This document shows, one piece after another, positions 29,599-53,203 of a DNA stretch of 64,000 nucleotides; within the stretch, counting starts at the first letter, position 1; each line of letters opens with the position of its first letter. The position numbers were made by a program, and so were the translations under genes. The notes under the pieces were generated by a model that worked only from the letters and a program-made list of their open reading frames with translations, had not been told where the DNA came from and made no database searches. This DNA is from Actinomycetota bacterium. GTDB lineage: Bacteria > Actinomycetota > Acidimicrobiia > Acidimicrobiales > MedAcidi-G1. The stretch lies in the NCBI GenBank assembly GCA_014381745.1, contig JACNLA010000022.1:1-64000 (forward strand). The letters run 5' to 3'.

Positions 29599-30333
29599 TC
29601 AGGCCCACCGTTGCGCCAACCGTTCCGCCGCACCACCCAGAAGACAAAGCAGTGGCTCGACAGCGTCCTCCAGCACAGCGAAGATGTCCTCAAGGCTGAG
29701 ATCCTCTGAGCCAAGTCCAGCTGCCGGGTTTGACACCACTCCAACCGCTGCATACGGAAGGTCCAGTTCTCTGGCCAGCGCCACCTCCGGGTAGCCGGTC
29801 ATGCCGACCAGATCACCGCCGAAGCCCGCATACATGCGAATTTCGGCCGGAGTTTCAAAGCGGGGCCCGTTTGCACATACGTAGGTTCCACCGTCAACCA
29901 GACGTACACCCGCTGAGCCGGCCACCTCCGCCAGCAGCCGACGCAGGTCCGGGTCGTAGGGATCGGTCATGTCGGTGTGGCGAACCTCGTCATCAAAAAA
30001 GGTGTCCTCACGACCGTGCGTGAGGTTGATGAACTGGTCGATCAGCACCAACTCGCCGTTCCGGTATGCCGGGTTGATCCCACCACTCACCGCCGTGGCG
30101 AACACCGCCCGGGCACCTGCATCGTGGAGAGCCCAGAGGTTCGCCCGATAGGGGATGCGCTGCGGTGGAACGCTGTGGTCGGCACCGTGCCTCGGCAGAA
30201 ACACCACCGGGCATCCCATCCAGGTACCAGACACCAGACCCACGGAGCCGTAGGGGGTCGAAGCCTCCTGCTCCCTGGCACCCACGAGACCCGGCAGGTC
30301 ATAGAAACCACTTCCGGTGATCAGGCCGAGCAT
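29599..30333 (-). CDS. S-methyl-5'-thioinosine phosphorylase (MTAP/PNP family)
   Basis: A 244-residue purine nucleoside phosphorylase of the MTAP branch, phosphorolysing a 5'-substituted nucleoside to the base and a pentose 1-phosphate. TGSGFYDLPGL and FLPRHGADHSVPP are phosphate-site segments; GMTGYPEVALAREL binds the ribose. The base-site loop reads SNPAAG, as in Pseudomonas methylthioinosine phosphorylase, whereas MTA phosphorylases carry TDYDCW with the adenine-binding Asp. I therefore predict 6-oxopurine (hypoxanthine) specificity. It is the last gene of the minus-strand transporter/mtnA run, and a matching deaminase lies at 38361-39662. Confidence 0.85.
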   Translation of the reverse strand: MLGLITGSGFYDLPGLVGAREQEASTPYGSVGLVSGTWMGCPVVFLPRHGADHSVPPQRIPYRANLWALHDAGARAVFATAVSGGINPAYRNGELVLIDQFINLTHGREDTFFDDEVRHTDMTDPYDPDLRRLLAEVAGSAGVRLVDGGTYVCANGPRFETPAEIRMYAGFGGDLVGMTGYPEVALARELDLPYAAVGVVSNPAAGLGSEDLSLEDIFAVLEDAVEPLLCLLGGAAERLAQRWA

Positions 30334-30356: not shown

Positions 30357-31892
30357 TCAGTTGTCGGTCCCTGACAACATCAACCGACCCACGCGGTCAC
30401 GGTCGATCCCGTCGGCTGACTCAATGGCCACGATCTGGCCTCCGTAGATGACCGCCACCCGGTCGGCGAGACCCAGGACCTCGTCCAACTCCGCCGACAC
30501 CAGAAGGATCGCCATGCCGGCATCGCGATACTCGATGAGCCGGCGGTGGATGAACTCGATGTTGCCGATGTCGATACCGCGGGTCGGCTGTGCCGCGACC
30601 ATCACCTTGGCTTCGTGGGAGAACTCGCGCGCAGCCACGACCTTCTGCTTGTTGCCACCCGAGAGGGTCGCGACCATCGCCCCAATGTTCGACGGGCGGA
30701 CGTCGAACTCGGCCACGAGCCTTTCCGCATTATCCTCAACAGCCCCCGGACTCCTGATCCCGTGCCGGGAGTAGGGAGGCTGGTGATAACGGTTCAGGAC
30801 CATGTTGTCGGCAACGGTGTGTGCACCTATCAGGCCGAACTTCTCCCTGTCCTCAGGGATGTGTGACACCCCCATGGTGCTGATCTGGCGGGGAGACATG
30901 CCGGCAATCTCGACCCCCTCCAGAGTGATGGAACCCGAGACCACACCACGGAGGCCTGTTATGGCCTCTACAAGTTCGCGCTGTCCATTACCCTCCACGC
31001 CGGCCACACCGACCACCTCGCCAGCGCGGACATCAAGATTGATTCCGTTGAGGGACTGAGAGCGACGGTCGTCGTTGACCACCAGGTCGACGATGGTCAA
31101 CACCTTGTCTCCGGGTGACGCTGGGGTCCGCTCCAGGCTGAGTTCCACGGAGCGACCAACCATCATCGAAGCGAGGCTTGCCTCATCGGTCTCGGCCGGG
31201 ACAGCGCTCCCCACGACCTTCCCGCGACGCATCACGGTGATGTCATCGGCTACGGCCATGACCTCACGGAGCTTGTGCGTTATGAACACGACAGCAACCC
31301 CGGTGTCAGCCAGGCCCCGTAGGACACCCAGCAGGTGGGTCGTCTCCTGAGGGGTGAGAACCGCCGTAGGTTCATCCAGGATCAGGATGTCCACCTCGCG
31401 AAAGAGGGCACGAAGGATCTCCACCCTCTGCTGGAGCCCGATGGGCAGATCCTCGACACGGGCCCACGGATCAATCTCCAGGCCGAATCGTTCTGCAAGG
31501 GCCCTCACCACAGAAGCCGCCTCATCAAGATCCACGACACCGCGCCTCGTCGGTTCGTTACCCAGCACCACATTCTCAGCGACCGTCAGGACGGGAACCA
31601 GCTGAAAGTGCTGATGAACCATTCCGATCCGGCTGTCAATTGCGTCGCGCGGGCCGTTCAGGTGCACAACCTCACCGTTGCGTCGCACCTCGCCACTATC
31701 AGCCCGGTAGAGCCCGAAGATGATGTTGACAAGCGTGCTCTTGCCAGCGCCGTTCTCGCCCAGCAGGGCGTGAACGCGACCGCGCTCGACGCGAAAATCG
31801 ACATCCTCGTTGGCAAGCACGTCGCCGAATCGCTTGGTGACTCCCAGAACCTCGAGGGCCGGAGGCGCGGCCACGCTCACCGCGTCACTCAC
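30357..31892 (-). CDS. Nucleoside-type ABC importer, ATP-binding protein
   Basis: A 511-residue ATPase with two ABC domains in tandem. The first has Walker A GENGAGKST, the signature LPIGLQQRVEILRAL region and Walker B DILILDEPTAVL. The second has a degenerate P-loop (GVEGNGQRELVEA) but a good signature TLSGGNKQK. This is the arrangement of simple-sugar and BmpA-type nucleoside importers. I prefer the GTG at 31892, which overlaps the upstream permease stop by 8 bp; an in-frame ATG at 31955 would lie deep within the permease. Operon partners are the two permeases, mtnA and the phosphorylase, so nucleosides are the likely cargo. Confidence 0.9.
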   Translation of the reverse strand: MSDAVSVAAPPALEVLGVTKRFGDVLANEDVDFRVERGRVHALLGENGAGKSTLVNIIFGLYRADSGEVRRNGEVVHLNGPRDAIDSRIGMVHQHFQLVPVLTVAENVVLGNEPTRRGVVDLDEAASVVRALAERFGLEIDPWARVEDLPIGLQQRVEILRALFREVDILILDEPTAVLTPQETTHLLGVLRGLADTGVAVVFITHKLREVMAVADDITVMRRGKVVGSAVPAETDEASLASMMVGRSVELSLERTPASPGDKVLTIVDLVVNDDRRSQSLNGINLDVRAGEVVGVAGVEGNGQRELVEAITGLRGVVSGSITLEGVEIAGMSPRQISTMGVSHIPEDREKFGLIGAHTVADNMVLNRYHQPPYSRHGIRSPGAVEDNAERLVAEFDVRPSNIGAMVATLSGGNKQKVVAAREFSHEAKVMVAAQPTRGIDIGNIEFIHRRLIEYRDAGMAILLVSAELDEVLGLADRVAVIYGGQIVAIESADGIDRDRVGRLMLSGTDN

Positions 31893-32877
31893 GGCTATAT
31901 GGCTGCCCGATGGCAGCAGGCGGTCGAGCCCTACCAACGAAGCCGGCCAAAACAACGATGCAGACCACGTAGGGGATCATTCCGATGAACTGCGGATCGT
32001 CGGCCAGCCAACCCCTGAACTGAAGTTGGGTCTGCACCGCGCTGGCATAGCCAAATAGCAGGGCTGCACCCCAGATCCCGATCGGGTTCCAACGGCCGAA
32101 GATCATCACCGCCAACGCCACGAAGCCCCGTCCATTGGTCATCATGCGCTCAAAGGATCCGACGGCCTCGAGGCTGAGATAGGCGCCACCCAGCCCTGCG
32201 AGGCATCCGCCGGCAATGAGGTTCGTGTACCGGACCCGCGCAACCGAGATCCCGACGGTCTCGGCTGCGCTCGGCACCTCGCCCACGGACCTGGTCCACA
32301 GACCCCACCGAGTTCGGAACAGGATGAACCACACAACCCAGATGAGGATCAGGGATATGTAGGTGAGGGGACGGTTGATGAAGAACACCCTGCCGACGAC
32401 CGGAAGGTCGGCAAGCGGGCCGAGCGATACCTGGGGGGTCTTGCCGGAAGGCAGGGTGCGACCCTGCTGGAAGAAGTAGCTGCTGATCCCGAAGGCGGCG
32501 ATGTTGAGAACGGTTCCGGCAATTATCTGGTCGCCCAGCAGGGTCACCGAGAGCCCGGCCAGACCGGCTCCCATCAGGGCGCCAGTCGCCATTCCGGCCA
32601 GAACACCAGCCACGAGGCTGCCGGTCGAGGAGGCAACCATGAACCCGACAAACGCCGAAAGCAGCATCTGACCCTCGATGCCGATGTTGACGACCCCGGA
32701 ACGCTCACACATGACACCGCACAACGCACCGAAGATGAGCGGCGTGGACTGGCGTAGTGCGCTGGCCAGAACTGCCGTTGTCTGGGCCTGTTGGAACTCG
32801 GCGGTGAACATTGTTATGAGCACGAACACGAGGATCGTCAACACCCACCAGCGTGTACGTATGAACAGGTCGCTCAT
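31885..32877 (-). CDS. Nucleoside-type ABC importer, permease 2 (NupQ/YufQ-like)
   Basis: A 330-residue inner-membrane permease of the branched-chain/sugar/nucleoside importer family, with about eight hydrophobic segments and the typical LCGVMCERSGVVNIGIEGQM motif near residue 55. The ATG at 32877 overlaps the stop of the upstream permease by 4 bp (ATGA), so I prefer it to the TTG four codons earlier. It would form a heterodimer with the other permease and use the ATPase that follows. Confidence 0.92.
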   Translation of the reverse strand: MSDLFIRTRWWVLTILVFVLITMFTAEFQQAQTTAVLASALRQSTPLIFGALCGVMCERSGVVNIGIEGQMLLSAFVGFMVASSTGSLVAGVLAGMATGALMGAGLAGLSVTLLGDQIIAGTVLNIAAFGISSYFFQQGRTLPSGKTPQVSLGPLADLPVVGRVFFINRPLTYISLILIWVVWFILFRTRWGLWTRSVGEVPSAAETVGISVARVRYTNLIAGGCLAGLGGAYLSLEAVGSFERMMTNGRGFVALAVMIFGRWNPIGIWGAALLFGYASAVQTQLQFRGWLADDPQFIGMIPYVVCIVVLAGFVGRARPPAAIGQPYSRE

Positions 32878-33923
32878 GACGAACCCCAACCCGAGGTAAT
32901 CGAGACCTCAGCGACATCCTGGCGGGAGAAGAACCAACGAACCACTATCGGAGTCGCCACAAACAACAACATGAGCGCCTCGATGATGTCGGTGATCTCG
33001 GGTGACACGTCGGCGTTGAACTGCATCATCGAACCTCCGGCCTCCATGGCCCCGATAAGCAGGGCGGCGGGGATCACGCCGATCGGATTGTTCCGGGCGA
33101 GCAGCGCGATGGTGATTCCGTTGAACCCCAGGCCCGCGTTGAATCCGGGTTCGTACCTTCCGATGACACCCTGGGTCTCTATGGCACCGCCGGCACCGGC
33201 CAGGAACCCGCTGATCGCCATGGTGGCCACGACTATCCGTTTCACCGAGATGCCCGCGTATCTGGCAGCGTCGCCGTTCAGGCCAACGGAGCGGATCTCA
33301 AAGCCGAGGGTGGTCCGCTCCAGCAGGTACCAACAGCCGATGCTTGCCGCAACGGCAACCAGGAACCCTGTTGGCAGAGCACCCCACTGCGGGATTACGG
33401 CACTCTCCTCGACCGCCGGCGTCCGGGACAGGATCCCCTCGTCCTTCCATGGGTTCGAGGCCAACCAGTCCGTCAGGTTGAGGGCCACGAAGTTGAGCAT
33501 GATCGTGGTGATCACCTCGTGGGCTCCACGGGTGGCCTTCAGCACCCCGGCGATCGAACCCCAGGCTGCGCCGGCCAGAGCACCCACGGCAAGTGCAAGC
33601 GGAGCGTGGATGATCCAAGGCAGGCCCTCGAAGCCGAAACCCACAGCCGCAGCGAAGATGCCCCCGATCACGAGCTGGCCCTGGCCACCGATGTTGAAGA
33701 GCCCGGCGCGAAAGGCGAAAGCCACGGCCAGTCCACCCATGATGAGCGGGGTTGCCTTCTCGAGCGTACGTCCGATCGTCTTCTGGCTTGACAGCGATCC
33801 GTCGATCAGCGCGCTATACGCCTCGATGGGGTTGGCCCCGGACAGGGCGAGGATGATGGCACCGATTCCGAGCGCCAGGCCAACTGCGATGAGAGGGACC
33901 GCTACCGGTTTCAGCCATCTCAT
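32874..33923 (-). CDS. Nucleoside-type ABC importer, permease 1 (NupP/YufP-like)
   Basis: A 349-residue inner-membrane permease, paired with the one that follows. It begins with a hydrophobic anchor (PLIAVGLALGIGAIILALSG) and contains the family motif FRAGLFNIGGQGQLVIGG near residue 92. It has about nine hydrophobic segments. The upstream gap of 102 bp to mtnA may hold a separate promoter. A BmpA-type substrate-binding lipoprotein is normally encoded next to these genes but is absent here. Confidence 0.92.
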   Translation of the reverse strand: MRWLKPVAVPLIAVGLALGIGAIILALSGANPIEAYSALIDGSLSSQKTIGRTLEKATPLIMGGLAVAFAFRAGLFNIGGQGQLVIGGIFAAAVGFGFEGLPWIIHAPLALAVGALAGAAWGSIAGVLKATRGAHEVITTIMLNFVALNLTDWLASNPWKDEGILSRTPAVEESAVIPQWGALPTGFLVAVAASIGCWYLLERTTLGFEIRSVGLNGDAARYAGISVKRIVVATMAISGFLAGAGGAIETQGVIGRYEPGFNAGLGFNGITIALLARNNPIGVIPAALLIGAMEAGGSMMQFNADVSPEITDIIEALMLLFVATPIVVRWFFSRQDVAEVSITSGWGSS

Positions 33924-34025: not shown

Positions 34026-35051
34026 TCACCCCTGCCCCGAGTCCAGCGATTCCCCACGGTCAAGCCTCACCACCCGGGTGTCGGTGACGATCGCCGTGAT
34101 CAACTCAGCGGGCGTGACATCGAACGCAGGGTTGAGGGCATGCGTGCCATCTGGAGCCGAGGCCACCCCCGCAAAGCAAACGACCTCGTCGTCACCCCGG
34201 TCCTCGATCTCGATGTCGTCGCCTGTAACGGTGGCCATGTCGATCGTGGACTCCGGAGCAACAACTACAAACGGGACCCTGGAATACCGTGCCGCCAGTG
34301 CCAGCGAGTACGTGCCGATCTTGTTTGCCGTGTCGCCGTTGGCTGCAATCCGGTCGGCCCCTACCAGGACCACGTGCACCGACCCAGTGGAGATGAGATG
34401 GGGTCCGGCCGAGTCGACGATCAACCTGAACGGTGCACCCATCTGCTGTAGTTCCCAGGCTGTCAGGCGCGCCCCCTGCAACAGCGGCCTCGTCTCAAGG
34501 GCAACGGCTTCTTCAAGGAGACCGCGTTCATGGAGGGTCTGGATCACGGCCAGAGCCGTCCCCCGCTCGACGCTGGCGAGGCCACCCGTATTGCAGATCG
34601 TGAGCGCCCGGACCGAGTCGGACCTACCTGTGAGCTCAACCACAAGGTCAGCGCCGTTGTCTCCCATTTTCACCGACGCGACCAACTCATCGTCTCTGAC
34701 CGCGTACGCCTCAGCCAGGACGGCGTCGAAGCCACCGTCTGAGGTGGCTACCACCCGGTCGACCATCTTCGCCAGGTTCACGGCAGTTGGCCGCGCTGAA
34801 CGAATCGACTCCACCGCTGCTGCAAAGGCCTCGGTCCCGACACCGTCCACCTTTGCGGCCAGGACAACGCCGAACGCACCGGCGACACCGATTGCCGGTG
34901 CCCCACGAACCGACAGCCGGCGGATGGCATCGACCAGGTCGGACACCGTCGCGATCTGCAACACCTCGACTGATGTCGGCAACTTCGTCTGGTCGACCAT
35001 CAAGATGGTGCCATCAACCCAGTCCAGGGTCTTTCCGCCAAGCTCGCCCAT
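34026..35051 (-). CDS. mtnA: S-methyl-5-thioribose-1-phosphate isomerase
   Basis: A 341-residue isomerase of the eIF2B-related MtnA family, converting methylthioribose 1-phosphate (and 5-deoxyribose 1-phosphate in some organisms) to the 1-phospho-ketose. The N-terminus KTLDWVDGTILMVDQTKLP is typical. The catalytic Cys lies in ICNTGGLASVE and the catalytic Asp in VGADRIAANGDTANKIGTY. It sits between the nucleoside transporter and the divergent cupin/SDR/aldolase operon, which places it centrally in a predicted salvage pathway. No mtnK, mtnB, mtnD or RuBisCO-like gene is nearby. Confidence 0.93.
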   Translation of the reverse strand: MGELGGKTLDWVDGTILMVDQTKLPTSVEVLQIATVSDLVDAIRRLSVRGAPAIGVAGAFGVVLAAKVDGVGTEAFAAAVESIRSARPTAVNLAKMVDRVVATSDGGFDAVLAEAYAVRDDELVASVKMGDNGADLVVELTGRSDSVRALTICNTGGLASVERGTALAVIQTLHERGLLEEAVALETRPLLQGARLTAWELQQMGAPFRLIVDSAGPHLISTGSVHVVLVGADRIAANGDTANKIGTYSLALAARYSRVPFVVVAPESTIDMATVTGDDIEIEDRGDDEVVCFAGVASAPDGTHALNPAFDVTPAELITAIVTDTRVVRLDRGESLDSGQG

Positions 35052-35131: not shown

Positions 35132-35587
35132 ATGAACGCCGACCAGATCGCAGCCATTCTCGGGCTCGTGCCCCTGCCAGAAGAGGGCGGGATGTGGGCA
35201 CAAACCTGGCACGACGAACACGGATCGGCGATCTACTTCCTGATGCAACCAGACGATTTCTCAGCAATGCACCGCCTCAACCGGACCGAGTTGTGGCACC
35301 ACTACAGCGGTGCACCCGTCGACTTCCTGCTCTTGAACCCGGACGGATCTCACGAAACCCCGGTGCTGGGAAGTGACCTGACGGCCGGTGAACGCCCGTT
35401 CATGGCTGTACCGGCCGGTGTCTGGATGGGCGCATCCACAATGGGAGACTGGTCGCTCGTTGGAACCACGCTGGCTCCGCCGTACGACCCAGATGGCTTC
35501 GAGTTGGGAACAGCTGAACAACTCATCGAGGGGTTCCCTGAAGCTACAGCCCGTATCACCGACCTCGTAAGGGACAACCAGCCGTGA
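35132..35587 (+). CDS. DUF985 (cupin_5) family protein
   Basis: A 151-residue protein of the DUF985/cupin_5 family, a single-domain cupin of unknown function. Typical signatures are the N-terminal AAILGLVPLPEEGGMW, GSAIYFLMQPDDFSAMHRL and ELWHHYSGAPVDFLLL, with His residues in the cupin barrel that could bind metal or ligand. It overlaps the next gene by 4 bp (GTGA) and is the first gene of the plus-strand half of the salvage locus. A role with a sugar phosphate or aldehyde is possible only by context. Confidence 0.88.
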   Translation: MNADQIAAILGLVPLPEEGGMWAQTWHDEHGSAIYFLMQPDDFSAMHRLNRTELWHHYSGAPVDFLLLNPDGSHETPVLGSDLTAGERPFMAVPAGVWMGASTMGDWSLVGTTLAPPYDPDGFELGTAEQLIEGFPEATARITDLVRDNQP

Positions 35588-36357
35588 CCGTGACCGAGTC
35601 ACCCCGGGACCTGTTGGACCTTTCCGGCCGCGTCATCGTCGTAACCGGTGCCGGCGGAGGCATCGGCTCCGGAATCGTCAACCGGCTCGTTGCCGCCGGA
35701 GCAACTGTCGTCGCCCACACCCGGTCATCGTCCACCGACCACCTTCTCGACCTTGACGGCAACCCCGTGTCGAGTCTCCGAGCCGACCTGACATCGCCCG
35801 ACGGTCCCACCAACGTCATCGACTCCACGCTCAGGGAATTCGACCGCCTGGACGGGCTGGTAAACAATGCCGGAATCCAGCCGGTCGTACCGTTCGACGA
35901 GATCACCGATGAGATCTGGTCCCAGACGATGGACGTCAACCTCAAGGCCGTTCACCACCTCACACACCTGGCGGCGACGGCCATGCGCTCACGCGAAACG
36001 GGCGGTTCGATTGTCCACATTGCCTCAATCGAGGCCCACCAACCGACCAGGGTGCACGGGCACTACGCCACCTCCAAGGCCGCACTGGTGATGCTGGCAA
36101 AGGCTGCGGCACTCTCATACGGCCGAGACGGCATCCGTGTCAACACGGTCTCACCCGGGCTCATCACACGACCCGGCCTGGACGAGGAATGGCCCGACGG
36201 GGTCGATCGCTGGAAGGCGGCAGCCCCACTCACCAGGCTCGGAACACCCGAGGACGTTGGCGACGCCTGCGTGTTCCTGTGCTCGGACCTCTCCCGCTGG
36301 ATCACCGGAATCGACCTTGTGGTCGACGGCGGGATACTCACCCGGCCCACGTGGTGA
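35584..36357 (+). CDS. Short-chain dehydrogenase/reductase
   Basis: A 257-residue classical SDR. The Rossmann motif TGAGGGIGSGI lies near residue 22, NNAG near 95, the catalytic Ser in IVHIASIE and the YATSK motif near 160. It ends with the typical DLVVDGGI segment. GTG start overlapping the cupin stop. In this operon it could reduce or oxidise the small aldehyde released by the aldolase encoded next, but sugar or alcohol substrates are equally possible. Sequence alone does not tell the direction. Confidence 0.92.
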   Translation: MTVTESPRDLLDLSGRVIVVTGAGGGIGSGIVNRLVAAGATVVAHTRSSSTDHLLDLDGNPVSSLRADLTSPDGPTNVIDSTLREFDRLDGLVNNAGIQPVVPFDEITDEIWSQTMDVNLKAVHHLTHLAATAMRSRETGGSIVHIASIEAHQPTRVHGHYATSKAALVMLAKAAALSYGRDGIRVNTVSPGLITRPGLDEEWPDGVDRWKAAAPLTRLGTPEDVGDACVFLCSDLSRWITGIDLVVDGGILTRPTW

Positions 36358-36383: not shown

Positions 36384-38354
36384 GTGGAAGACCGCTGGGA
36401 CCTCTCAGTCTCCAAGAACCTCGATACCCCCCTCGACGAGTGCGTGTACGGGTCGCGTCTGATCGGCTCTGACCCGGCCCTCGTGCTTCACGGTGGTGGC
36501 AACACGTCGGTCAAGGCCCCGTTCACAGACATCACCGGATCCACCACCGACACGCTGTTCGTGAAGGGCTCCGGCTGGGACCTGGCGTCGATCGAACCTG
36601 AGGGGTTCGCCCCGCTGACCTTGCGGCGCCTAAAGAACCTCCTGGCGCTCGACTCGCTCTCCGATCCCGACATGATGCGCGAGCTCATGTCCGCCAGCTT
36701 CGACCCTGCGGCACCCGCACCGTCGGTAGAGAGCCTGCTGCACGCCTACATCCCCCACCCGGCGATCCTCCACAGCCACGCCGATGCGATCGTGTCGCTC
36801 ACAAACGTGGGTGATTCCGATGGATACGTACACGAGATCTTCGGTGACACCGTCGTCGTCATTCCCTACGTCATGCCCGGCTTCGACCTGGCCAAGGTCG
36901 TAGCCACATCGTGGCCCGACCAGGTCAACGCCGGCACCATCGGAATGGTGCTGTTGAACCACGGCCTCTTCACCTTCGGCGAAACCACACACGAGGCCTA
37001 TGTAAGGCACCATGAGCTGATCTCGAAGGCCGAACGATGGCTGGCTCAGAACGCTCCCCTCCCGGCTTCCACGGTTCCCTCTCTTCCGGACCTCGACGCG
37101 ATCGCCCTTGCCGGACTCCGGCGGGACGTCTCCGAGGCTGCGGGCCAGCCGATGCTCCTGTGCCGTCACTGCGACCAGGTCTCCACCCGGTTCGTCCAGC
37201 GCGGCGACCTGGAAAGCCTTGCAACAAGGGGCCCCCTGACACCCGACCATGTGATCCGCACCAAGCGGATACCGCTGGTGGGTCGGGATGTAGCCGCCTA
37301 CACGGCTTCCTACGAGAACTATTTCAGAGAACATGAACGCAGGGGGCGCACCGAGTTGACGATGCTGGACCCGGCTCCACGCATCGTGGTCGACCCCGAG
37401 CTGGGGGTACTGACCGCCGGCAGAACCATTGCCGCTGCAGACATCGCCTTTGACATCTACGAGCACACGATGCCAGCCCTTGAGCGGGTCGAAGACAACC
37501 TGGACCGTTACGAGGCACTCGACGCAGGCCACATCTTCGACGTCGAGTACTGGGACCTTGAACAGGCCAAGCTCCGCCTCGCCGGCCCACCAGCCGAGTT
37601 GGCTGGAATGGTCGCGCTGGTCACCGGAGCCGCCTCCGGAATCGGCCGGGCCTGTGCCGCCGAGTTGCTGGCACGCGGGTGCGCCGTGGGCGGCATGGAC
37701 ATCGACCCCGATATCGCAACCACCTTCGAGAGCCCAGCCTGGCTGGGCCGGACCGTGGACGTCTCCGATCCGGATGCCCAGGTAGCAGCGGTCGACGCAA
37801 TAGTCGAGCGCTTCGGTGGCCTCGACATCGTCCTCGTAGCCGCCGGGATCTTCGGCGCCAGCGCACCCATCAGTGCTCTCGACTCCGGTGACTACCGGAG
37901 GGTCCAGGATGTCAACGTCGACTCCGTCGTCAACCTCCTGCACGCGACCCACCCGTTCCTGGCCAGGTCACCTGTCGGAGGACGTGTCTCGATCATCGGC
38001 TCAAAGAACGTGGCTGCCCCGGGGAAGGGAGCCCTGTCGTACTCGACCTCAAAGGCCGCCCTCAGCCAGGTCGCCCGTGTGGCAGCCCTCGAATGGGCCG
38101 ACGACGGCATCCGCGTCAACACGGTCCACCCTGACGCCGTGTTCGACACAGGACTCTGGAACGACGACCTGCTCAGGGAACGGGCCGACAACTACGGCCT
38201 CACCGTCGACGAGTACAAGACCCGCAACCTCCTGCAGACCGAGGTCACCTCGGCAGGGGTGGCACGGGTCGCAGTCGAGTTGTGCACCAACACGTTCTCC
38301 GCCACGACGGGCGCACACATCCCGATTGACGGCGGAAACGAGCGGGTCGTATAG
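36384..38354 (+). CDS. Class II aldolase fused to short-chain dehydrogenase
   Basis: A 656-residue two-domain enzyme of the RhaD-like aldolase/alcohol-dehydrogenase family. Residues about 1-400 are a class II aldolase with HGGGNTSVKAPF, the zinc-binding HSHADA at about 130 and a second His-containing LLNHGLFTFG. Residues about 415-656 are an SDR with TGAASGIGRACA and YSTSK. Relatives split rhamnulose 1-phosphate to DHAP and lactaldehyde and process the aldehyde. Here no rhamnose genes are present, while mtnA, an MTI phosphorylase and a deaminase are, so 5-methylthioribulose or 5-deoxyribulose 1-phosphate is a likelier substrate. GTG start, 26 bp after the SDR gene. Confidence 0.9.
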   Translation: MEDRWDLSVSKNLDTPLDECVYGSRLIGSDPALVLHGGGNTSVKAPFTDITGSTTDTLFVKGSGWDLASIEPEGFAPLTLRRLKNLLALDSLSDPDMMRELMSASFDPAAPAPSVESLLHAYIPHPAILHSHADAIVSLTNVGDSDGYVHEIFGDTVVVIPYVMPGFDLAKVVATSWPDQVNAGTIGMVLLNHGLFTFGETTHEAYVRHHELISKAERWLAQNAPLPASTVPSLPDLDAIALAGLRRDVSEAAGQPMLLCRHCDQVSTRFVQRGDLESLATRGPLTPDHVIRTKRIPLVGRDVAAYTASYENYFREHERRGRTELTMLDPAPRIVVDPELGVLTAGRTIAAADIAFDIYEHTMPALERVEDNLDRYEALDAGHIFDVEYWDLEQAKLRLAGPPAELAGMVALVTGAASGIGRACAAELLARGCAVGGMDIDPDIATTFESPAWLGRTVDVSDPDAQVAAVDAIVERFGGLDIVLVAAGIFGASAPISALDSGDYRRVQDVNVDSVVNLLHATHPFLARSPVGGRVSIIGSKNVAAPGKGALSYSTSKAALSQVARVAALEWADDGIRVNTVHPDAVFDTGLWNDDLLRERADNYGLTVDEYKTRNLLQTEVTSAGVARVAVELCTNTFSATTGAHIPIDGGNERVV

Positions 38355-40636: not shown

Positions 40637-40668
40637 TGAGTTGAGGGTTGCCGGGGACCGGGAGACGC

Positions 40669-42738
40669 GTGCGCACACTCGAAAGCTTCGTACAGGGATC
40701 GTGGCACTCGCCCGAAGCCGGTGGCGTGGTGACCAACCATGCGGTCACCGGCGACCCCGTGGCTTCCGTGTCCAGCAACGGAATCGACTTCGCAGCGACC
40801 ACCCGGTATGCACGCGACGTCGGCGGCCCCACCCTCCGGGCAATGACATTCCACGAACGCGCCTCCCTCCTGAAAGCCCTCGGCCAGCACCTGTTTGCCG
40901 AAAAGGAGATGCTCTACGACCTGTCCACCGCAACTGGCGCCACCCGGGCGGACTCCTGGATCGACATCGAAGGCGGTGCGGGAGTTCTCCTCAGCTACGC
41001 ATCCAAGGGGCGGCGCGAGCTCCCAAACTCGACGGTCCTCGTGGATGGCGAACCCGAAATCTTGGCCCGCGACGGATCGTTCATCGCCGCCCACATCGCC
41101 ACACCTTTGAACGGTGTCGCCGTGCAGGTCAACGCATTCAACTTCCCCTGCTGGGGTGCGCTCGAAAAGCTGGCTCCCGCCCTCCTGGCGGGCGTTCCCG
41201 CAATCATCAAACCCGCAACACAGACCGCCTTCCTGACCGAAGCAATGGTCCGGCTGATCGTTGAGTCCGGCATTCTCCCGGACGGAGCACTGCAGCTCGT
41301 CTGCGGGGGGTTGGGCGACCTGTTCGACCACCTTGGAGGCCAGGACCTGATCGGCTTCACCGGCTCGGCCGCAACCGCTGCACTCCTGAGAGCCCATCCG
41401 GCCGTGGTCGAACGGTCAGCACGCTTCAACGCCGAGGCCGACTCCCTGAACGCCGCCATCCTGGGCAGCGAATCGGAGCCCGGTTCACCCGAGTTTGACC
41501 TGTTCGTAAGAGAGGTCGTAGCCGAGATGACCGTGAAGGCCGGTCAGAAATGCACCTCCATACGCCGGGCAATGGTACCCAAGCAGCACCTGGAGGCGGC
41601 GACCGACGCTGTGGCAACCGCACTCGGCGAGGTCCGGGTAGGCGACCCAGCTGACCCAGAAACCAGCATGGGTGCCCTCGTCAGCACGGCCCAGAGAGCA
41701 GAGGTGCTCGACGCCATTACGGCCCTGTCCGGTTCTACCGACGTGGTCATCGACTCCTGCGTGTTCCACGACGTGGACGCCGAGCGTGGAGCGTTCCTTG
41801 CGCCAACCCTGCTGCGTTCCAACAACCCAGCCGACCCGAATGTGCACACCACCGAGGCCTTCGGACCGGTCAGCACGATCATGGGATACACGGACCCGGC
41901 CGACGCCATCTCGCTCACAGCCCTCGGTGGCGGGAGCCTCGTCGCCTCCATCTACACAGCCGACCCGGTCGAGGCCCATGTGCTGGCGACCGGCATAGCG
42001 GCACACCATGGCCGCATCCACGTAGTGGACGCATCGGTAGCCGATAGCAGCACCGGCCACGGCTCCCCGCTACCCAGCCTCGTCCACGGTGGCCCCGGCA
42101 GGGCCGGTGGCGGCGAGGAAATGGGCGGTCTGCGTGGTGTACGCCACCACCTCCAGACGACAGCGGTACAGGGCTCGCCCGACATGCTCACGGCCGTGAC
42201 CGGAGAGTGGATGCCGGGCTCAACCCGTGACCTGGACAGTGGCCACCCGTTCAAGCTGAACTTTGAGAACCTCGACATCGGAACGGCGATCCAAACCGAC
42301 TCCCGCACGGTGACCCTCGACGACATCGTGAACTTCGCCGAGAGCACGGGGGACCACTTCTATGCACACATGGACGAAGAGGCCGCAGCGGCGAGCCCCA
42401 TCTTTGGAGGACGAGTAGCCCACGGCTACCTGGTCCTCTCGCTGGCAGCCGGACTGTTCGTCTGGCCCGACCCGGGACCCGTCCTTGCCAACTACGGAAT
42501 CGACCGATGCCGGTTCGCCAAGCCGACCTATCCGGGCGACACCCTCACCGTCTTCCTGACATGCAAACGCAAGACACTGCGGGCCGGAACCGGTTACGGA
42601 GAGGTGGCCTGGGACGCCCAGGTCCTCAACCAGGACAAGGACGTCGTCGCCGCCTACGACGTCCTCACGATGGTCGCAAACCAGCCCGGGGTGAACGGCG
42701 CCCCTGACGAGTCAACTGAAAGTGGAGGCAAAGCCTGA
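40669..42738 (+). CDS. paaZ: PaaZ-like aldehyde dehydrogenase / MaoC hydratase fusion
   Basis: A 689-residue bifunctional enzyme. Residues about 1-515 are an aldehyde dehydrogenase with NAFNFPCWGALEKLAPALLAG, FTGSA and the nucleophile region KAGQKCTSIRRA. Residues about 530-680 are an R-hydratase/MaoC domain with TGDHFYAHMDEEAAA and FGGRVAHGYLVLSL. In phenylacetate degradation PaaZ opens oxepin-CoA and oxidises the aldehyde. The GTG at 40669 has a GGGAG site and gives the typical MRTLESFVQG start; an in-frame TTG at 40648 is less likely. First gene of the paa operon; its stop overlaps paaA by 1 bp. Confidence 0.95.
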   Translation: MRTLESFVQGSWHSPEAGGVVTNHAVTGDPVASVSSNGIDFAATTRYARDVGGPTLRAMTFHERASLLKALGQHLFAEKEMLYDLSTATGATRADSWIDIEGGAGVLLSYASKGRRELPNSTVLVDGEPEILARDGSFIAAHIATPLNGVAVQVNAFNFPCWGALEKLAPALLAGVPAIIKPATQTAFLTEAMVRLIVESGILPDGALQLVCGGLGDLFDHLGGQDLIGFTGSAATAALLRAHPAVVERSARFNAEADSLNAAILGSESEPGSPEFDLFVREVVAEMTVKAGQKCTSIRRAMVPKQHLEAATDAVATALGEVRVGDPADPETSMGALVSTAQRAEVLDAITALSGSTDVVIDSCVFHDVDAERGAFLAPTLLRSNNPADPNVHTTEAFGPVSTIMGYTDPADAISLTALGGGSLVASIYTADPVEAHVLATGIAAHHGRIHVVDASVADSSTGHGSPLPSLVHGGPGRAGGGEEMGGLRGVRHHLQTTAVQGSPDMLTAVTGEWMPGSTRDLDSGHPFKLNFENLDIGTAIQTDSRTVTLDDIVNFAESTGDHFYAHMDEEAAAASPIFGGRVAHGYLVLSLAAGLFVWPDPGPVLANYGIDRCRFAKPTYPGDTLTVFLTCKRKTLRAGTGYGEVAWDAQVLNQDKDVVAAYDVLTMVANQPGVNGAPDESTESGGKA

Positions 42739-43664
42739 TGGGACGCACCTGGTCCTCAATGGACGACTTCGAGACATTCCTCGACGACGGCGGCATGGTC
42801 GAGGTGGACGACGACATGCCCGACGAGTACAGGGCCGCCGTGTTTAGGTTCATCGAACTGCACGCCAACAGCGAGTTGATGGGCGGTCTGACAGAACGCG
42901 ACTGGATACCCATGACCCCCGGCCTACGCCACAAGATGGCCGTACTGGCCAAGACCCAGGACGAAATCGGCCACGGCCACCTGCTGTACATGGTGGCAGC
43001 GGACCTCGGCGTCAAGACCAGGCGGGAGATGCTCGAAGACCTGTTCGCCGGAAGGTCCAGATTTCACAACGTCTTCCACTACCCGGCAAGAACCTGGGGA
43101 GACCAGGTCGCCATCTGCCTCCTCGTGGACGGCGCTGCGGTACCCAGCCAGAAGGCCGTCTACAAGGACTGCTCCTACGGCCCCTACAAGCGAATCCTGA
43201 AACGAATAATCGCCGAAGAGGGCTTCCACCTCCGCCTCGGCGAAGAGCGGGTGCTCAGGATCGCCGAGGGAACCGACGCCCAACGTGCCATGTTCCAACA
43301 GTCGATCGACGACTGGTGGTGGCCGGCGCTCCGACTGTTTGGGCCCGACTCGAAGCCCAACGACCGGCTTGCCCGCTGGCGCCTCAAGTCAGAGAAGAAC
43401 GAGGTGATGCGGGCCGGCTGGGTTCAGAAGTTCGTTCCGATGCTGCACGGCTACGGGTTCACCGTGCCCGACCCCGGTCTCACCCATGACCCCGAAACTG
43501 ATGTCTGGACATGCGGGCCAATCGACTGGGAACCCCTCAAGAAGACGATGGCGATGGACGGACCGGACACGGCACGTCGGATCGCCGAAGCCTCCGCTGC
43601 CTGGGACAGCACCCGGTGGGTGCGCGACGCCCTCGATGCGACCCCGGCTGGAGCGGTCGCATGA
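42738..43664 (+). CDS. paaA: Phenylacetyl-CoA epoxidase subunit PaaA
   Basis: A 308-residue catalytic subunit of the diiron multicomponent epoxidase that makes ring-1,2-epoxyphenylacetyl-CoA. Ferritin-like helices carry carboxylate/His ligands in ELHANSELMGGLTERDW, KTQDEIGHGHLL and IIAEEGFHLRLGEERV. It overlaps paaZ by 1 bp and paaD by 4 bp. Acts in the cytoplasm as a complex with PaaC and PaaB. Confidence 0.97.
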   Translation: MGRTWSSMDDFETFLDDGGMVEVDDDMPDEYRAAVFRFIELHANSELMGGLTERDWIPMTPGLRHKMAVLAKTQDEIGHGHLLYMVAADLGVKTRREMLEDLFAGRSRFHNVFHYPARTWGDQVAICLLVDGAAVPSQKAVYKDCSYGPYKRILKRIIAEEGFHLRLGEERVLRIAEGTDAQRAMFQQSIDDWWWPALRLFGPDSKPNDRLARWRLKSEKNEVMRAGWVQKFVPMLHGYGFTVPDPGLTHDPETDVWTCGPIDWEPLKKTMAMDGPDTARRIAEASAAWDSTRWVRDALDATPAGAVA

Positions 43665-44140
43665 GCACCCTGACGGTTGATTCCCCACTCCTGGAGAGGG
43701 CCCTCGCAGCCGTAGCGACGGTTGACGACCCCGAGATTCCGGGTGTCTCAATTGTCGACCTCGGCCTGCTCGAAACAATCACGACAACTGACGAAGGCCA
43801 CATCTCCATCGGCCTCATCCCCACATTCTCCGGCTGTCCGGCACTCGCCATGATCGCCTCCGACGTGGAGGCAGCCGTGGCGGCACTACCCGGGGTTGAG
43901 GCGGTAACCGTCAGCTGGCTGACCGCACCAGTCTGGGACATCGAGCGAGTCACGTCCGAGGCCAGGACGACCATGGCCACAGACCTGACCGTGGCGGTCA
44001 GGATCGGGACCGGCCCCACACCATGCCCCCGCTGTGGCTCACCGACCGTTGAACAATCTGAGTTCGGTCCCAGCCGGTGCCGGGCTGTACACCGGTGTGA
44101 GTCCTGTCGTGAGGTGGTCGAAGTCATGCGGGACAGGTAG
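43661..44140 (+). CDS. paaD: PaaD, MIP18-like maturation factor of the epoxidase
   Basis: A 159-residue protein. The N-terminal MIP18/DUF59 domain contains VDDPEIPGVSIVDLGL and TFSGCPALAMI; the C-terminal part has a CPRC...CESC zinc-ribbon. PaaD is thought to help metal-centre assembly of the PaaABCE enzyme. The ATG overlaps the paaA stop (ATGA). It lies between paaA and paaB, an order different from the common paaABCDE. Confidence 0.94.
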   Translation: MSTLTVDSPLLERALAAVATVDDPEIPGVSIVDLGLLETITTTDEGHISIGLIPTFSGCPALAMIASDVEAAVAALPGVEAVTVSWLTAPVWDIERVTSEARTTMATDLTVAVRIGTGPTPCPRCGSPTVEQSEFGPSRCRAVHRCESCREVVEVMRDR

Positions 44141-44150
44141 AGGAGGACAC

Positions 44151-44423
44151 ATGCGGACCTACGAGATATTCCTGAAAAGGGACGGACAGGAGGAATACCG
44201 ACATGCCGGAAGCATCGACGCCCCCGATGACGAGCTTGCTCTCCTGTTGGCCCGCGAGAACTACCTGCGCCGCGCCGAGGGCGACCTTCTCTGGATGGTC
44301 GACCGCGCACACCTCCTGATCGGCGACAGGGACTTCGTGGCACCCAACTCCGACAAGCCACACAGGGACAATGACGGGCTCCTCGTGGCAGCCCACCGCA
44401 AGAGCCAGAGGGAAAGCACATGA
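44151..44423 (+). CDS. paaB: Phenylacetyl-CoA epoxidase subunit PaaB
   Basis: A 90-residue PaaB, a small subunit that organises the PaaA/PaaC complex. YEIFLKRDGQEEYRHAGSI and ALLLARENYLRRAEGDLLWMV are family-typical. The ATG at 44151 has a GGAGGAC site; a longer frame upstream lies in paaD and is not used. It overlaps paaC by 4 bp. Confidence 0.95.
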   Translation: MRTYEIFLKRDGQEEYRHAGSIDAPDDELALLLARENYLRRAEGDLLWMVDRAHLLIGDRDFVAPNSDKPHRDNDGLLVAAHRKSQREST

Positions 44424-45205
44424 ACCCCATAACCCCTGGCACAGCCGAGTTCCTGCTGGCCTTCGCCGACGACGAGCACCTCATGGGACAACAGCACACC
44501 GAGTGGATCGGCATCGCACCGTTCCTCGAAGAGGACATGGCATTCGCCAGCATCGCCCAGGACGAGCTCAGCCATGCGGCCCTCCTCTACGCCATCGTCG
44601 CCGACGACGGACAGGGTGGCCCACCCGATGACCGTGCTATCGACAAGCTGGCGTTTGACCGGACCGCCAACGACTACCGATCGGCACAAATCGTGGAGGT
44701 GGCCTGCACCGGCTGGGCACACGCCCTCGTGCGCCACTGGCTCTACGACACCGCAGAGGAACTCCGGTGGACCCTCGTCGAGGACTCGGATCTCGAACCG
44801 CTGAAGGACGCTGCTGCCCATGCAGCCCGTGAAGAAAGGTTCCACATCCGCCATGCCGACGGCCTGATCGACGTGCTGCTGCGAACACCCGACAGCGCCG
44901 ACCGGCTGGCAGACGCCGTACGGGACCTCCTGCCCCTCGCCATGAGCCTGTTCGACCCGGTTGCGGAAGAAGCGGAGGCCGTCGAGGCAGGCGTCGCCTC
45001 GGCGCCGTTCGACACGATGTTGCCTGAATGGACCGACCGGGTTCGAACCCGGTTCCCGGACATCGACATAGGAAGTGTCTCGGCTCCTGAACTCACCGGG
45101 CGGACACAGAGGCACGGAGACTTCCCAGCGCTGCTTGCCCGGATGAACAAGGTCAGGGGCATCGACCCGACCGCCATCTGGTCCGACGCTACGGTGCGGC
45201 AATGA
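44420..45205 (+). CDS. paaC: Phenylacetyl-CoA epoxidase subunit PaaC
   Basis: A 261-residue non-catalytic ferritin-like subunit of the epoxidase. LLAFADDEHLMGQQHTEWIG and IAQDELSHAALLYAIV are typical, with HAAREERFHIRHAD in the later helix. The ATG overlaps the paaB stop, and its own stop overlaps the following racemase-family gene (ATGA), implying the latter is truly part of the operon. paaE, the reductase that should follow, is not present. Confidence 0.95.
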   Translation: MNPITPGTAEFLLAFADDEHLMGQQHTEWIGIAPFLEEDMAFASIAQDELSHAALLYAIVADDGQGGPPDDRAIDKLAFDRTANDYRSAQIVEVACTGWAHALVRHWLYDTAEELRWTLVEDSDLEPLKDAAAHAAREERFHIRHADGLIDVLLRTPDSADRLADAVRDLLPLAMSLFDPVAEEAEAVEAGVASAPFDTMLPEWTDRVRTRFPDIDIGSVSAPELTGRTQRHGDFPALLARMNKVRGIDPTAIWSDATVRQ

Positions 45206-46194
45206 TCCCCGGACCGGGCGAGTTCCTGGAAACCACCGACTACCACTGCGCAGGTGAACCGTTCCGCATCCTCGACGTCGGCCCCATGGAGGGCCGAACC
45301 GTAGGCGACCGACGCGAGTGGGCGATGGAAAACCTGGACGACCTCCGGCGCTTCCTCATCAACGAACCACGCGGGCATGCCGACATGTACGGCGGTTTCG
45401 TCGTACCGCCCAACGACCCCGACGGCGACCTGGGGATCGTGTTCTTCCACAAGGACGGCTTCAGCACCGCATGCGGCCACGGAACCATCGCCATCGTCAC
45501 CTGGGCGATCGACACGGGGCTGATAGCTGCCACCGGCGACACCGTGGAAGTGGTTGTGGACGTTCCCTCCGGTCGTCTGCCTACGCTCGCACGACTACAC
45601 GGGGACGTGGTGACCAGCGTCAGATTCCAAAACATTCCCGCCTACGTCAGCGCCACGGGAATGGAGATCTCCACCACCTTCGGGACCGTGTCAGCCGACA
45701 TCTCGTTCGGTGGCGCCTTCTATGCGTCAGTGAACCTCGACAAGATGGGCCTCTCAACCGACGCCGAATGCATCGACGACCTGATCTCCCTCGGGCGCCA
45801 GATAAGGGCTGCCCTTGATGGCTCACCCACCGTGGCGCACGGCCCGGACGGCCGGCTCTCAAACCTCTACGGCACGATCTTCCATGAGACCATGGACGCC
45901 AATCCGCTGCACCAACGAAACATCACGATCTTCGCTGACGGCCAGGTTGACCGGTCACCCTGTGGCTCCGGTACATCAGCCCGCCTGGCACTGCTGCAAC
46001 GATCCGGACAGGTGAACCTCAACGACCAGTTCCTGAACGAGGGAATCGCCGGCGACGTCTTCTATGGCCAGATCATCGCGAACACCGATGCCGGCATAAT
46101 CACCACCGTCGAAGGTTCCGCCTGGATGCACGCCACGAGCAGGTTCACCCTTGACCCGAACGACCCGATTGGCCTCGGGTTCCAGTTGCGCTGA
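45202..46194 (+). CDS. Proline racemase / hydroxyproline epimerase-family protein
   Basis: A 330-residue diaminopimelate-epimerase-fold protein of the proline racemase family. The two catalytic Cys are present, Cys91 in ACGHGT and Cys254 in SPCGSGT, so a two-base racemase/epimerase rather than a dehydratase (which has Thr at the second site) is expected. An N-terminal TTDYHCAGEPFRI segment is typical. Its ATG overlaps the paaC stop, placing it firmly within the paa operon, where a racemase has no known role. The substrate is unknown; proline or hydroxyproline is a family-based guess. Confidence 0.88.
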   Translation: MIPGPGEFLETTDYHCAGEPFRILDVGPMEGRTVGDRREWAMENLDDLRRFLINEPRGHADMYGGFVVPPNDPDGDLGIVFFHKDGFSTACGHGTIAIVTWAIDTGLIAATGDTVEVVVDVPSGRLPTLARLHGDVVTSVRFQNIPAYVSATGMEISTTFGTVSADISFGGAFYASVNLDKMGLSTDAECIDDLISLGRQIRAALDGSPTVAHGPDGRLSNLYGTIFHETMDANPLHQRNITIFADGQVDRSPCGSGTSARLALLQRSGQVNLNDQFLNEGIAGDVFYGQIIANTDAGIITTVEGSAWMHATSRFTLDPNDPIGLGFQLR

Positions 46195-46233
46195 CCACAC
46201 AGAGCCACCACCCGCCATCTATCGTCACCCACT

Positions 46234-47550
46234 GTGACCTCAAGACAGCCGTTGGACACGACCGGCCTCGAGGGGGAGGCAAAGGTCCGACTGCAAGGTG
46301 AACGTCTCCATGCGCTGGTTGAGAGGTTGTCCAACTGTGACAACCCCTTCTGGTCTGAGCGCCTCGCCGGCGTTGATCCGAGGGCGATCACCTCGGTCGA
46401 TGACCTGGCCTCTCTGCCATACACCGTCAAGGCGGACCTCCGCGACACCTACCCCCTGGGCATGGTCACCACGAAGATGTCCGGCACCACGAGGCTCCAC
46501 GCCAGCTCCGGCACGAGCGGCAAGCCGACAATCGTCGTCTATACGCCCGGCGATATCGCAATCTGGGCCGAGGTCAACGCCCGGGCACTCGCCTTGGCTG
46601 GAGCAGGGCCCGATGACATCCTCCACAACGGGTACGGGTACGGGCTGTTCACGGGTGGCCTGGGACTCCACAACGGTGGTGAACGCCTTGGATGCACCGT
46701 TGTTCCGGTGTCGGGTGGCAACACGGCCCTCCAACTCCGACTGCTCGAGGACCTCGGCAGCCGTGTCATGTCGGCCACGCCCTCGTTCGCTCTGCTGCTC
46801 GCCGAGCGTGCCCGCCAACAGGGAGTGCTGGACCGCCTCAAAGTTGAGATCGGCATTCTGGGTGCAGAGCCCTGGTCCGAGGGGATGCGCAGCCGCATTG
46901 AAGCCGCATGGGGCCACGGCTTCCAGGCACTGGACATCTACGGCCTCTCCGAGGTGATCGGGCCCGGAGTGGCAATGGAGGCACCCGACGACCTCGGCGC
47001 ATTGAATGTGTTCGACGACCACTTCCTTCCGGAAATCGTCGATCCGGCATCGGGGACCGTGGTTGCCGATGGCGAATGGGGTGAGCTGGTTCTCACAACA
47101 CTCACAAAGGAGGCGATGCCCGTCGTCAGGTACCGCACGGGCGACATCACCCGGATTCTGCCTGGTAGCGGAATCGAGGGTCGAAACTGGACCCGCATAG
47201 CACGCCTCACGGGACGGGTCGATGACATGATCATCATTCGCGGGATCAACGTCTATCCGCGGGAAATAGAAACCGTCCTCATGGAAGACCCCGACATCGG
47301 AACCAACTACGCCATCGTTGTCGATCGCCGGGACCTGATGGCCGAGCTGAGGGTAAGAGCAGAACTCACCGCCGAGGCCGCCGGCCGGACAGAGGACTCC
47401 TCGGCTCGACTCAAAAAAGTCCTCCTGGATCGCCTCCGTATCCGAGTAGGCGTCGAGTTGGTTCCCGCTGGTTCAATGTTCAGGACCGAAGCGGGCAAGG
47501 TCCAGAGGGTCTTTGAACAGACGGACGAAACGGACCCTCTGGTTCGCTGA
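46234..47550 (+). CDS. paaK: Phenylacetate-CoA ligase
   Basis: A 438-residue adenylate-forming ligase activating phenylacetate to its CoA thioester. The P-loop HASSGTSGKPT lies at about residue 90, the A5-like LDIYGLSEVIGPG segment near 235, and the hinge/C-terminal RGINVYPREIE motif near 338. GTG start 39 bp after the racemase-family gene. It supplies the substrate for PaaABC. It is the last gene of the operon, ending 15 bp before the convergent kinase gene. Confidence 0.95.
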   Translation: MTSRQPLDTTGLEGEAKVRLQGERLHALVERLSNCDNPFWSERLAGVDPRAITSVDDLASLPYTVKADLRDTYPLGMVTTKMSGTTRLHASSGTSGKPTIVVYTPGDIAIWAEVNARALALAGAGPDDILHNGYGYGLFTGGLGLHNGGERLGCTVVPVSGGNTALQLRLLEDLGSRVMSATPSFALLLAERARQQGVLDRLKVEIGILGAEPWSEGMRSRIEAAWGHGFQALDIYGLSEVIGPGVAMEAPDDLGALNVFDDHFLPEIVDPASGTVVADGEWGELVLTTLTKEAMPVVRYRTGDITRILPGSGIEGRNWTRIARLTGRVDDMIIIRGINVYPREIETVLMEDPDIGTNYAIVVDRRDLMAELRVRAELTAEAAGRTEDSSARLKKVLLDRLRIRVGVELVPAGSMFRTEAGKVQRVFEQTDETDPLVR

Positions 47551-50456: not shown

Positions 50457-50469
50457 CGCTTCCTCCATG

Positions 50470-52107: not shown

Positions 52108-53203
52108 CGTCGCTACCCGGTCGACCACCGAGCAGGTCGGAACGGATCTCGACTGTGGGACCGGTCGCGCCGGCATCTTCCTGGTCCTGTCTGATCCACA
52201 CGGTTCGCTGTGGAAACGGAATCTCAATGCCGTTCTCGTCAAAGGCCCTCTTGAGGCGGGCCCGTAGCAGTCGGCCGGTTGCCCACTGCTCGCCTGGCTC
52301 GGTCTTTACTGCCAACCTGATGGAGATCGCGTCGGCACCGAAGCTCTGAACACCCCAGATCTCGGGCTCTTCAAGGATCGTGGTCGTCTCACGCTTCTCC
52401 CGCCAGACCTCGTCCGCCACGTCCTTGATGACGCTGGCCGCAAGGTCAATATCGGTGTCGTAGGCCACGTCAACGTCCAAAACAGTTCGAGCCCACAGTT
52501 GTGACGAGTTGCCGACCCGGCGGATCTCGCCGTTGGGAATCACCCAGACGACCCCCTCGACGTCCCGCAGGACCGTGGTGCGCAGGCTGACCCGCTCGAC
52601 GGTGCCCGACGCGGCTCCGACGTCGACGTAGTCGCCCACCCCGTACTGGTCCTCGATCACGATGAAGATCCCGGCGATGAAGTCAGCCACCAGCGACTGT
52701 GCGCCAAAACCAATCGCCAGACCGACAATTCCCGCACCAGCAATTAGTGGCGCCAGGTCGAAACCGATCTCCCCGAGGGCCAGCATCATGGCCATGAGAT
52801 AGACAACCGCCCCGGTGATACTTCGCAGCACGGCTCCCAGCGTGAGTGCCCGCTGGCGTGACCGTTCAGCCTGCTCGTGGATCCTCCGCAGCCTGCCCCT
52901 GGCCCGCCGGCCCAGCCGGGCGACCATTGCATCAGACTCCGCCTCGTCCTCCTCCGCCGTCCGGGAGGCGACAAGACGTTCGACCATGCGATCAATTGTT
53001 CGCTTGACCAGCCTGTTCACAATTACAGCACCCACCACGATGATGCCGATCTTGAGCGGACGCTCCACGAACCATGCCGCAATTTCAGAAGCCGCCCCAC
53101 TACCCGTAGCGTCCCAGACGGCTTCACAGATGAATCCCGGGCTGTCGCCACAGGCGTCGGACAAACCCGAAGAAGCCACCTGAGCCAGCAGTTCGATTGC
53201 CAT
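52097..53203 (-). CDS. Small-conductance mechanosensitive channel (MscS family)
   Basis: A 368-residue MscS channel that opens on membrane stretch to release solutes. A first hydrophobic segment (about 43-62) precedes a charged helical stretch; the pore helix region is rich in Ala/Gly (LIAGAGIVGLAIGFGAQSLV), followed by the beta domain YVDVGAASGTVERVSLRTT and IPNGEI. ATG at 53203 has a GGAGGT site and is preferred to the upstream frame start at 53239. It precedes glpD on the same strand with a short overlap. Confidence 0.93.
   Translation of the reverse strand: MAIELLAQVASSGLSDACGDSPGFICEAVWDATGSGAASEIAAWFVERPLKIGIIVVGAVIVNRLVKRTIDRMVERLVASRTAEEDEAESDAMVARLGRRARGRLRRIHEQAERSRQRALTLGAVLRSITGAVVYLMAMMLALGEIGFDLAPLIAGAGIVGLAIGFGAQSLVADFIAGIFIVIEDQYGVGDYVDVGAASGTVERVSLRTTVLRDVEGVVWVIPNGEIRRVGNSSQLWARTVLDVDVAYDTDIDLAASVIKDVADEVWREKRETTTILEEPEIWGVQSFGADAISIRLAVKTEPGEQWATGRLLRARLKRAFDENGIEIPFPQRTVWIRQDQEDAGATGPTVEIRSDLLGGRPGSDGGE

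Follow-up and report, generated by a model that had tools for sequence, protein, structure and literature searches.

The gene at the centre of this analysis occupies positions 36384-38354 (+ strand) of the window, that is, the whole 64,000-nucleotide stretch of DNA analysed here. It is an open frame of 656 residues with no internal stops and a GTG start preceded by AGGAAG. Pfam (Aldolase_II at residues 28-217, SDR at 410-651), AlphaFold2, Foldseek and residue comparisons divide the product into a class II aldolase-type domain (about 1-222), a middle domain (about 235-400) and an NAD-type short-chain dehydrogenase (SDR, 405-656), in agreement with the initial annotation, which had described a single frame with aldolase and dehydrogenase halves. 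The AlphaFold2 model, computed from an input alignment of 33 family members (four rows from plasmid records were left out), has a mean pLDDT of 92.6 and a pTM of 0.91; searched with Foldseek it retrieves as best match 3m4r (TMt 0.93), a class II aldolase domain from Thermoplasma, with SDRs next. The middle domain is conserved and carries no Pfam name; it closes in a strand-hairpin-helix resembling the last part of a class II aldolase domain, of which it may be a degenerate repeat. The best model passing its cut-off is NF006196 (PRK08324.2-4; 889.7 against 831), which residues 1-656 match across profile positions 1-657 of 657; as its name is neutral (“bifunctional aldolase/short-chain dehydrogenase”), the earlier worry that automatic annotation would read the gene as rhamnose catabolism proved unfounded. 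The rhamnose equivalog TIGR02632 (RhaD_aldol-ADH) is failed at 402.9 (cut-off 567.75); for comparison, a true rhamnose-operon member (the L091 protein, with neighbours RhaI, RhaM and RhaS) scores 1192.2.

The fusion is the third gene of a compact + strand operon in which successive genes overlap or are separated by gaps of at most 26 bp. The operon opens with a Cupin_5 (DUF985) gene (35132-35587, by Pfam match), whose nearest structures are hypothetical proteins and which is co-conserved across the class with the fusion, SDR and deaminase; it continues with a stand-alone SDR (35584-36357, by profile matches), which shares 4 bp with the Cupin_5 gene and lies 26 bp before the fusion. Positioned 6 bp after the fusion is an amidohydrolase of family PF01979 (38361-39662, + strand), probably an MTA/SAH/5'-deoxyadenosine deaminase; 4f0r (MTA/SAH deaminase) and TM0936 (1p1m/2plm) are among the solved structures closest to it, and no NCBIfam model scores it above cut-off. 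Divergent from the operon, 80 bp separating its start from the Cupin_5 gene, is MtnA (S-methyl-5-thioribose-1-phosphate isomerase, 34026-35051, - strand), which passes TIGR00512 (368.5 against 279) and reaches 152.4 on the ribose-1,5-bisphosphate isomerase model (cut-off 314.1). The same - strand carries an ABC transporter of BMP/nucleoside type (30357-33923), comprising an ATPase with two ABC domains (sugar/nucleoside type by profile matches, 30357-31955) and two BPD_transp_2 permeases assigned by Pfam (31885-32889 and 32874-33923), and a purine phosphorylase of the 5'-methylthioinosine phosphorylase type (29599-30333). The phosphorylase passes the methylthioinosine model NF006599 (234.4 against 223) and just misses the MTAP model (251 against 274.85); its best solved structure is 3ozb, the alignment pairing SNPAAG with VNPAAG so that the base-recognition Asn is conserved. 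The window contains no substrate-binding protein gene; four Bmp proteins are encoded elsewhere in the genome, three beside other ABC ATPases and one at a contig end. A promoter and terminator scan gave nothing above chance. Directly downstream of the cluster lie phenylacetate degradation genes (PaaZ, PaaA, PaaC and PaaK, with an inserted proline racemase family gene; 40648-47550), then a row of glycerol kinase-like, FAD oxidase (GlcD-like) and glycerol-3-phosphate dehydrogenase-like genes (47566-52242), all under model cut-offs.

The source genome (2.19 Mb, 95.9% complete) narrows the possible partners of MtnA. MtnA is its only PF01008 protein, and the cluster phosphorylase is accompanied by one further PF01048 protein, an ordinary purine nucleoside phosphorylase; MtnN and any ARD family protein (MtnD, acireductone dioxygenase) are absent from the genome. 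Three PF00596 proteins are encoded, namely the fusion, a PRK06208 member and a PRK07490 member; none of the three is MtnB, and the fuculose-aldolase models score these proteins far under cut-off, with no stand-alone Ald2/DrdA (FucA-like) aldolase among them. Against this background, the fusion is the one obvious consumer of the ketose-1-phosphate made by MtnA. Universal methionine salvage was rejected, MtnB and MtnD both being absent. A search for spermidine synthase (PF01564) found none in this 95.9% complete genome, and there are ten radical-SAM domain matches; for these reasons we favour 5'-deoxyadenosine from radical-SAM enzymes, or an imported nucleoside, over MTA. MTA from polyamine synthesis was rejected as the main internal source, there being no spermidine synthase.

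Homologue loci were drawn from public genomes and plasmid records and split at 45% identity. In the stretch examined, MtnA is present at 35 of the 54 loci at or above this value and RhaI/RhaM at none, these loci coming mostly from one class and so not being independent, and some of those without MtnA being short contigs; below 45%, RhaI/RhaM are found at 35 of 43 loci and MtnA at 2. A maximum-likelihood tree gathers all 22 rhamnose-linked rows into a single clade of 23 members with strong support; the MtnA-linked rows all fall outside it. Within the class, MtnA is encoded by 44 of the 46 genomes that have the fusion and by 68 of the 349 that do not (Fisher p 3.7e-25, indicative only and not a true probability, the genomes being related), an association far beyond chance. 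MtnA lies at most 10 kb from the fusion in 35 of the 46 fusion-bearing genomes, and on another contig in 9 of the 44 that have MtnA.

The linkage survives repeated rearrangement, and this is the strongest evidence we have: MtnA is divergent from the fusion in the window and in L064, directly upstream of it in L012 and L076, and behind the transporter in L071. An MTR kinase accompanies MtnA in L073, L074, L075, L081, L082 and L124, and the kinase of L082 (Acidimicrobiia) passes the MTRK model (446.8 against 275). Among Alphaproteobacteria, mtnA is directly upstream of the fusion in Ruegeria, and mtnK-mtnA lies in the fusion cluster of Mariluticola, Rhizobium rosettiformans, strain NT-25 and Ensifer; three loci from other phyla (L014-L016) have no MtnA nearby. 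Some clusters carry further genes. Two different MtnA homologues, both passing TIGR00512, flank the fusion in L073 (3619-5280 and 8797-10836), where a transketolase N gene follows MtnA; on two Rhizobiales plasmids (L178:12701-17025 and L182:14958-19299) the genes after mtnK-mtnA, adjoining the fusion, encode a transketolase split into N and C parts and a RuBisCO-like protein. The initial annotation had placed the fusion with MtnA and deoxynucleoside salvage rather than with rhamnose, pointing to the divergent MtnA and to missing rhamnose genes nearby. Both parts hold: the first across many rearranged loci in two phyla, with the window MtnA confirmed by TIGR00512 and the adjoining transporter of BMP/nucleoside type, and the second by a profile search that recognised no rhamnose isomerase, kinase, mutarotase or transporter near the fusion.

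Residue comparisons are consistent with an intact enzyme. The metal ligands H130, H132 and H193 are conserved throughout the family alignment, as is an acidic residue at position 116 (Glu in the fusion, Asp in part of the rhamnose clade), and the SDR half retains D439 (NAD-type), S540, Y553 and K557; K541, R565 and R600 of the SDR half are conserved too. The core MtnA-linked set carries the signature L35/H36/M164/T286 where the rhamnose clade has N35/Y36/R164/C286, with exceptions at position 164 (Arg, as in the rhamnose clade, in L073, L075 and L082; Lys in L089 and L090). Judged from the alignment, loss of the Asn and Arg would fit a substrate lacking the C5 hydroxyl of rhamnulose-1-P. R246 is invariant among the fused proteins and lost from SDR-less homologues, and is perhaps part of the coupling between the halves.

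Taken together, the observed genes, their families and linkage, the absent alternatives and the conserved catalytic residues make it probable that the fusion breaks the carbon-carbon bond in a DHAP-shunt-like route for 5'-deoxynucleosides. From them we infer the individual reactions with their substrates, and which of oxidation and cleavage comes first, as follows. The substrate would be 5'-deoxyadenosine (or MTA), made internally by radical-SAM enzymes or imported via the BMP-type ABC system. The deaminase would convert it to 5'-deoxyinosine (or methylthioinosine), which the phosphorylase would split into hypoxanthine and 5-deoxyribose-1-P (or MTR-1-P), and MtnA would isomerize the latter to the ketose 5-deoxyribulose-1-P (or MTRu-1-P). 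The fusion would then cut the ketose-1-phosphate at C3-C4 to give DHAP and a two-carbon product, which, oxidised by the NAD-dependent SDR half, would leave as an acid. RhaEW turns rhamnulose-1-P and NAD+ into DHAP and lactate and is inactive with NADH (PMC3870299), and by analogy the fusion should yield DHAP and acetate (or methylthioacetate). As the equilibrium of such aldol cleavages is given as near 1e-4 in the DrdA paper (PMC6079011), oxidation would pull the reaction, NAD+ coupling thereby driving an otherwise unfavourable cleavage.

Two other roles were weighed against this pathway. A true rhamnulose-1-P aldolase/lactaldehyde dehydrogenase, beside MtnA by chance, would account for the domain architecture and catalytic residues that the fusion has in common with rhamnose-linked proteins at 31-38% identity; we consider it very improbable, given the score under the RhaD_aldol-ADH cut-off, the lack of rhamnose neighbours at all 54 close-homologue loci and the position outside the rhamnose clade. 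RhaA and RhaI are moreover absent from the whole 95.9% complete genome (the RhaI query was validated, BLAST with the same protein having found RhaI in rhamnose loci of other genomes of the phylum), and a rhamnose operon elsewhere in the genome lacking its own aldolase, which the initial annotation had named as the observation that would overturn its reading, was looked for and none was found. On these four counts (the missed TIGR02632, the absent RhaA and RhaI, the loci and the tree) the rhamnose role was rejected, as the initial annotation had proposed. The pathway might instead serve ordinary nucleoside catabolism, the MtnA homologue turning ribose-1-P into ribulose-1-P, which would be cleaved to DHAP and glycolaldehyde or glycolate. 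The nucleoside-type transporter and phosphorylase of the cluster would suit such a route, and ribulose-1-P aldolases form a named family (RU1PAldHalo model); we nevertheless hold it unlikely, as the phosphorylase belongs to the methylthioinosine type and the genome has a separate ordinary PNP, MtnA passes the MTR-1-P model and falls short on that for ribose-1,5-bisphosphate isomerase, related clusters contain an MTR kinase, and at signature positions the Asn and Arg of the rhamnose clade give way to hydrophobic residues.

A further question concerns the order of steps within the DHAP-shunt explanation itself. The SDR half could oxidise the C4 hydroxyl of the ketose-1-phosphate to a phospho-2,4-diketone, which the aldolase-type half would then cleave hydrolytically to DHAP and acetate, with a metal-stabilised DHAP enediolate as leaving group and no free aldehyde; this sub-case is compatible with the same pathway, and we regard it as possible but doubtful. 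C4 oxidation of 5-deoxyribulose-1-P gives 3-hydroxy-2,4-pentanedione-5-phosphate, exactly the substrate of LsrF in AI-2 processing, and Marques et al. in 2014 reportedly identified DHAP as an LsrF product. Genes for LsrF stand beside the fusion in the MtnA/MTR-kinase clusters L073, L074, L081 and L124 (one homologue beside the fusion is ~69% identical to E. coli LsrF), near it in L082, and also in L130 and L089. SDR-less RhaE-type “class II aldolases” occupy the lsrF place in alphaproteobacterial lsr (AI-2) operons that have no annotated lsrF (Sinorhizobium, Rhizobium, Alloyangia, Paracoccus and Thalassospira; L093:7914-9164, L094:7914-9155, L177:9001-10254, L185:9001-10242, L186:9001-10248), the position filled by lsrF in a Lacticaseibacillus operon of the same layout, and these proteins keep H130/H132/H193/E116 and share the L35/H36/M164/T286 of the fusion. 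Two Sagittula clusters, however, hold lsrF and the SDR-less protein together, which argues against simple replacement, and what the lsr-linked proteins act on is itself deduced. RhaEW formed neither DHAP nor lactate when NAD+ was omitted (PMC3870299), though an equilibrium near 1e-4 would allow about 10% cleavage at 8 mM; its authors read the reaction as aldol first, and the missing DHAP could reflect a detection limit. Oxidation first would explain why NAD+ is needed, and also why K541, R565 and R600 are conserved, basic residues that a phosphorylated substrate would favour. The initial annotation had suggested that the fusion could clear a toxic aldehyde at the place where it arises; the LsrF neighbours, the SDR-less proteins in the lsrF place and the RhaEW result without NAD+ are compatible with an order in which no such aldehyde is released.

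As a beta-diketone is not cleavable by retro-aldol chemistry, the aldolase-type domain may cleave phospho-diketones hydrolytically, with the SDR supplying the diketone. Extending this to the whole family is tentative: the RhaE-type domain might be a metal-dependent phospho-beta-diketone hydrolase rather than an aldolase, forming with the SDR an oxidise-then-cleave machine and, without it, completing AI-2 breakdown where an lsr operon lacks LsrF. Were this so, the fused form would produce DHAP and a carboxylic acid by an aldehyde-free route from 5-deoxyribulose-1-P and MTRu-1-P, and likewise from rhamnulose-1-P in the rhamnose branch; rhamnose catabolism, the salvage of radical-SAM by-products and AI-2 processing would all be connected through a single family. 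For the aldolase/SDR family, cleave-first versus oxidise-first becomes a directly testable question.

Whichever step comes first, the feature is real and conserved, and is most likely a DHAP-shunt variant in which a fused RhaE-type aldolase and SDR replace Ald2/DrdA. This would name a likely missing cleavage step in the disposal of 5'-deoxyadenosine/MTA by marine Acidimicrobiia and several Alphaproteobacteria, and clade, neighbours and residues set a large “aldolase/short-chain dehydrogenase” family apart from rhamnose catabolism. In the literature searched we found no description of this fused enzyme type in 5'-deoxynucleoside salvage, although the 2020 DHAP-shunt or PaMTIP work may mention it.

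The closest known protein is RhaEW (TIGR02632; PMC3870299), with which the fusion shares domain order, length class, metal ligands and an NAD-type SDR with S-Y-K; like RhaEW it is a class II aldolase plus SDR with intact catalytic residues. The two differ in clade, in the model cut-off that the fusion does not reach, in the L35/H36/M164/T286 signature and in neighbourhood: RhaEW is found with RhaI, RhaM and RhaS, whereas the fusion is found with MtnA, the phosphorylase and the deaminase in a genome without rhamnose isomerase. The DHAP shunt for MTA and 5'-deoxyadenosine proceeds via MtnP, or MtnN and MtnK, then MtnA and Ald2/DrdA (PMC6079011, PMC10986504). The cluster has in common with it MtnA encoded together with an enzyme of class II aldolase type that should release DHAP, and an entry by phosphorylase or kinase (the MTR kinase being present in sister clusters); Ald2/DrdA itself is absent. 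Where the shunt uses this stand-alone enzyme for cleavage, the cluster encodes a RhaE-type domain fused to an SDR, and where the shunt begins with a phosphorylase, or with a nucleosidase and MTR kinase, the window has a deaminase and a methylthioinosine-type phosphorylase. This entry recalls Pseudomonas aeruginosa, which uses an MTA deaminase and methylthioinosine phosphorylase route (PMC6302742); deaminase, MTIP-type phosphorylase and MtnA are common to both, but the window continues to the fused enzyme in a genome without MtnB and MtnD.

The remaining comparison is with the branch of AI-2 processing that runs through LsrF. This enzyme, a CoA-dependent thiolase (PMC6909531) with a TIM-barrel fold, is unrelated to the fusion, and no lsr genes were found near the fusion in the window. 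In other genomes, LsrF (P-AI-2 thiolase) homologues directly adjoin RhaE-type proteins, whether these have an SDR half or lack it (L073, L074, L081, L124, L089, L130, L180 and L187). What the LsrF branch shares with the pathway proposed here is chemical: a five-carbon 5-deoxy skeleton bearing a C1 phosphate, and DHAP as product.
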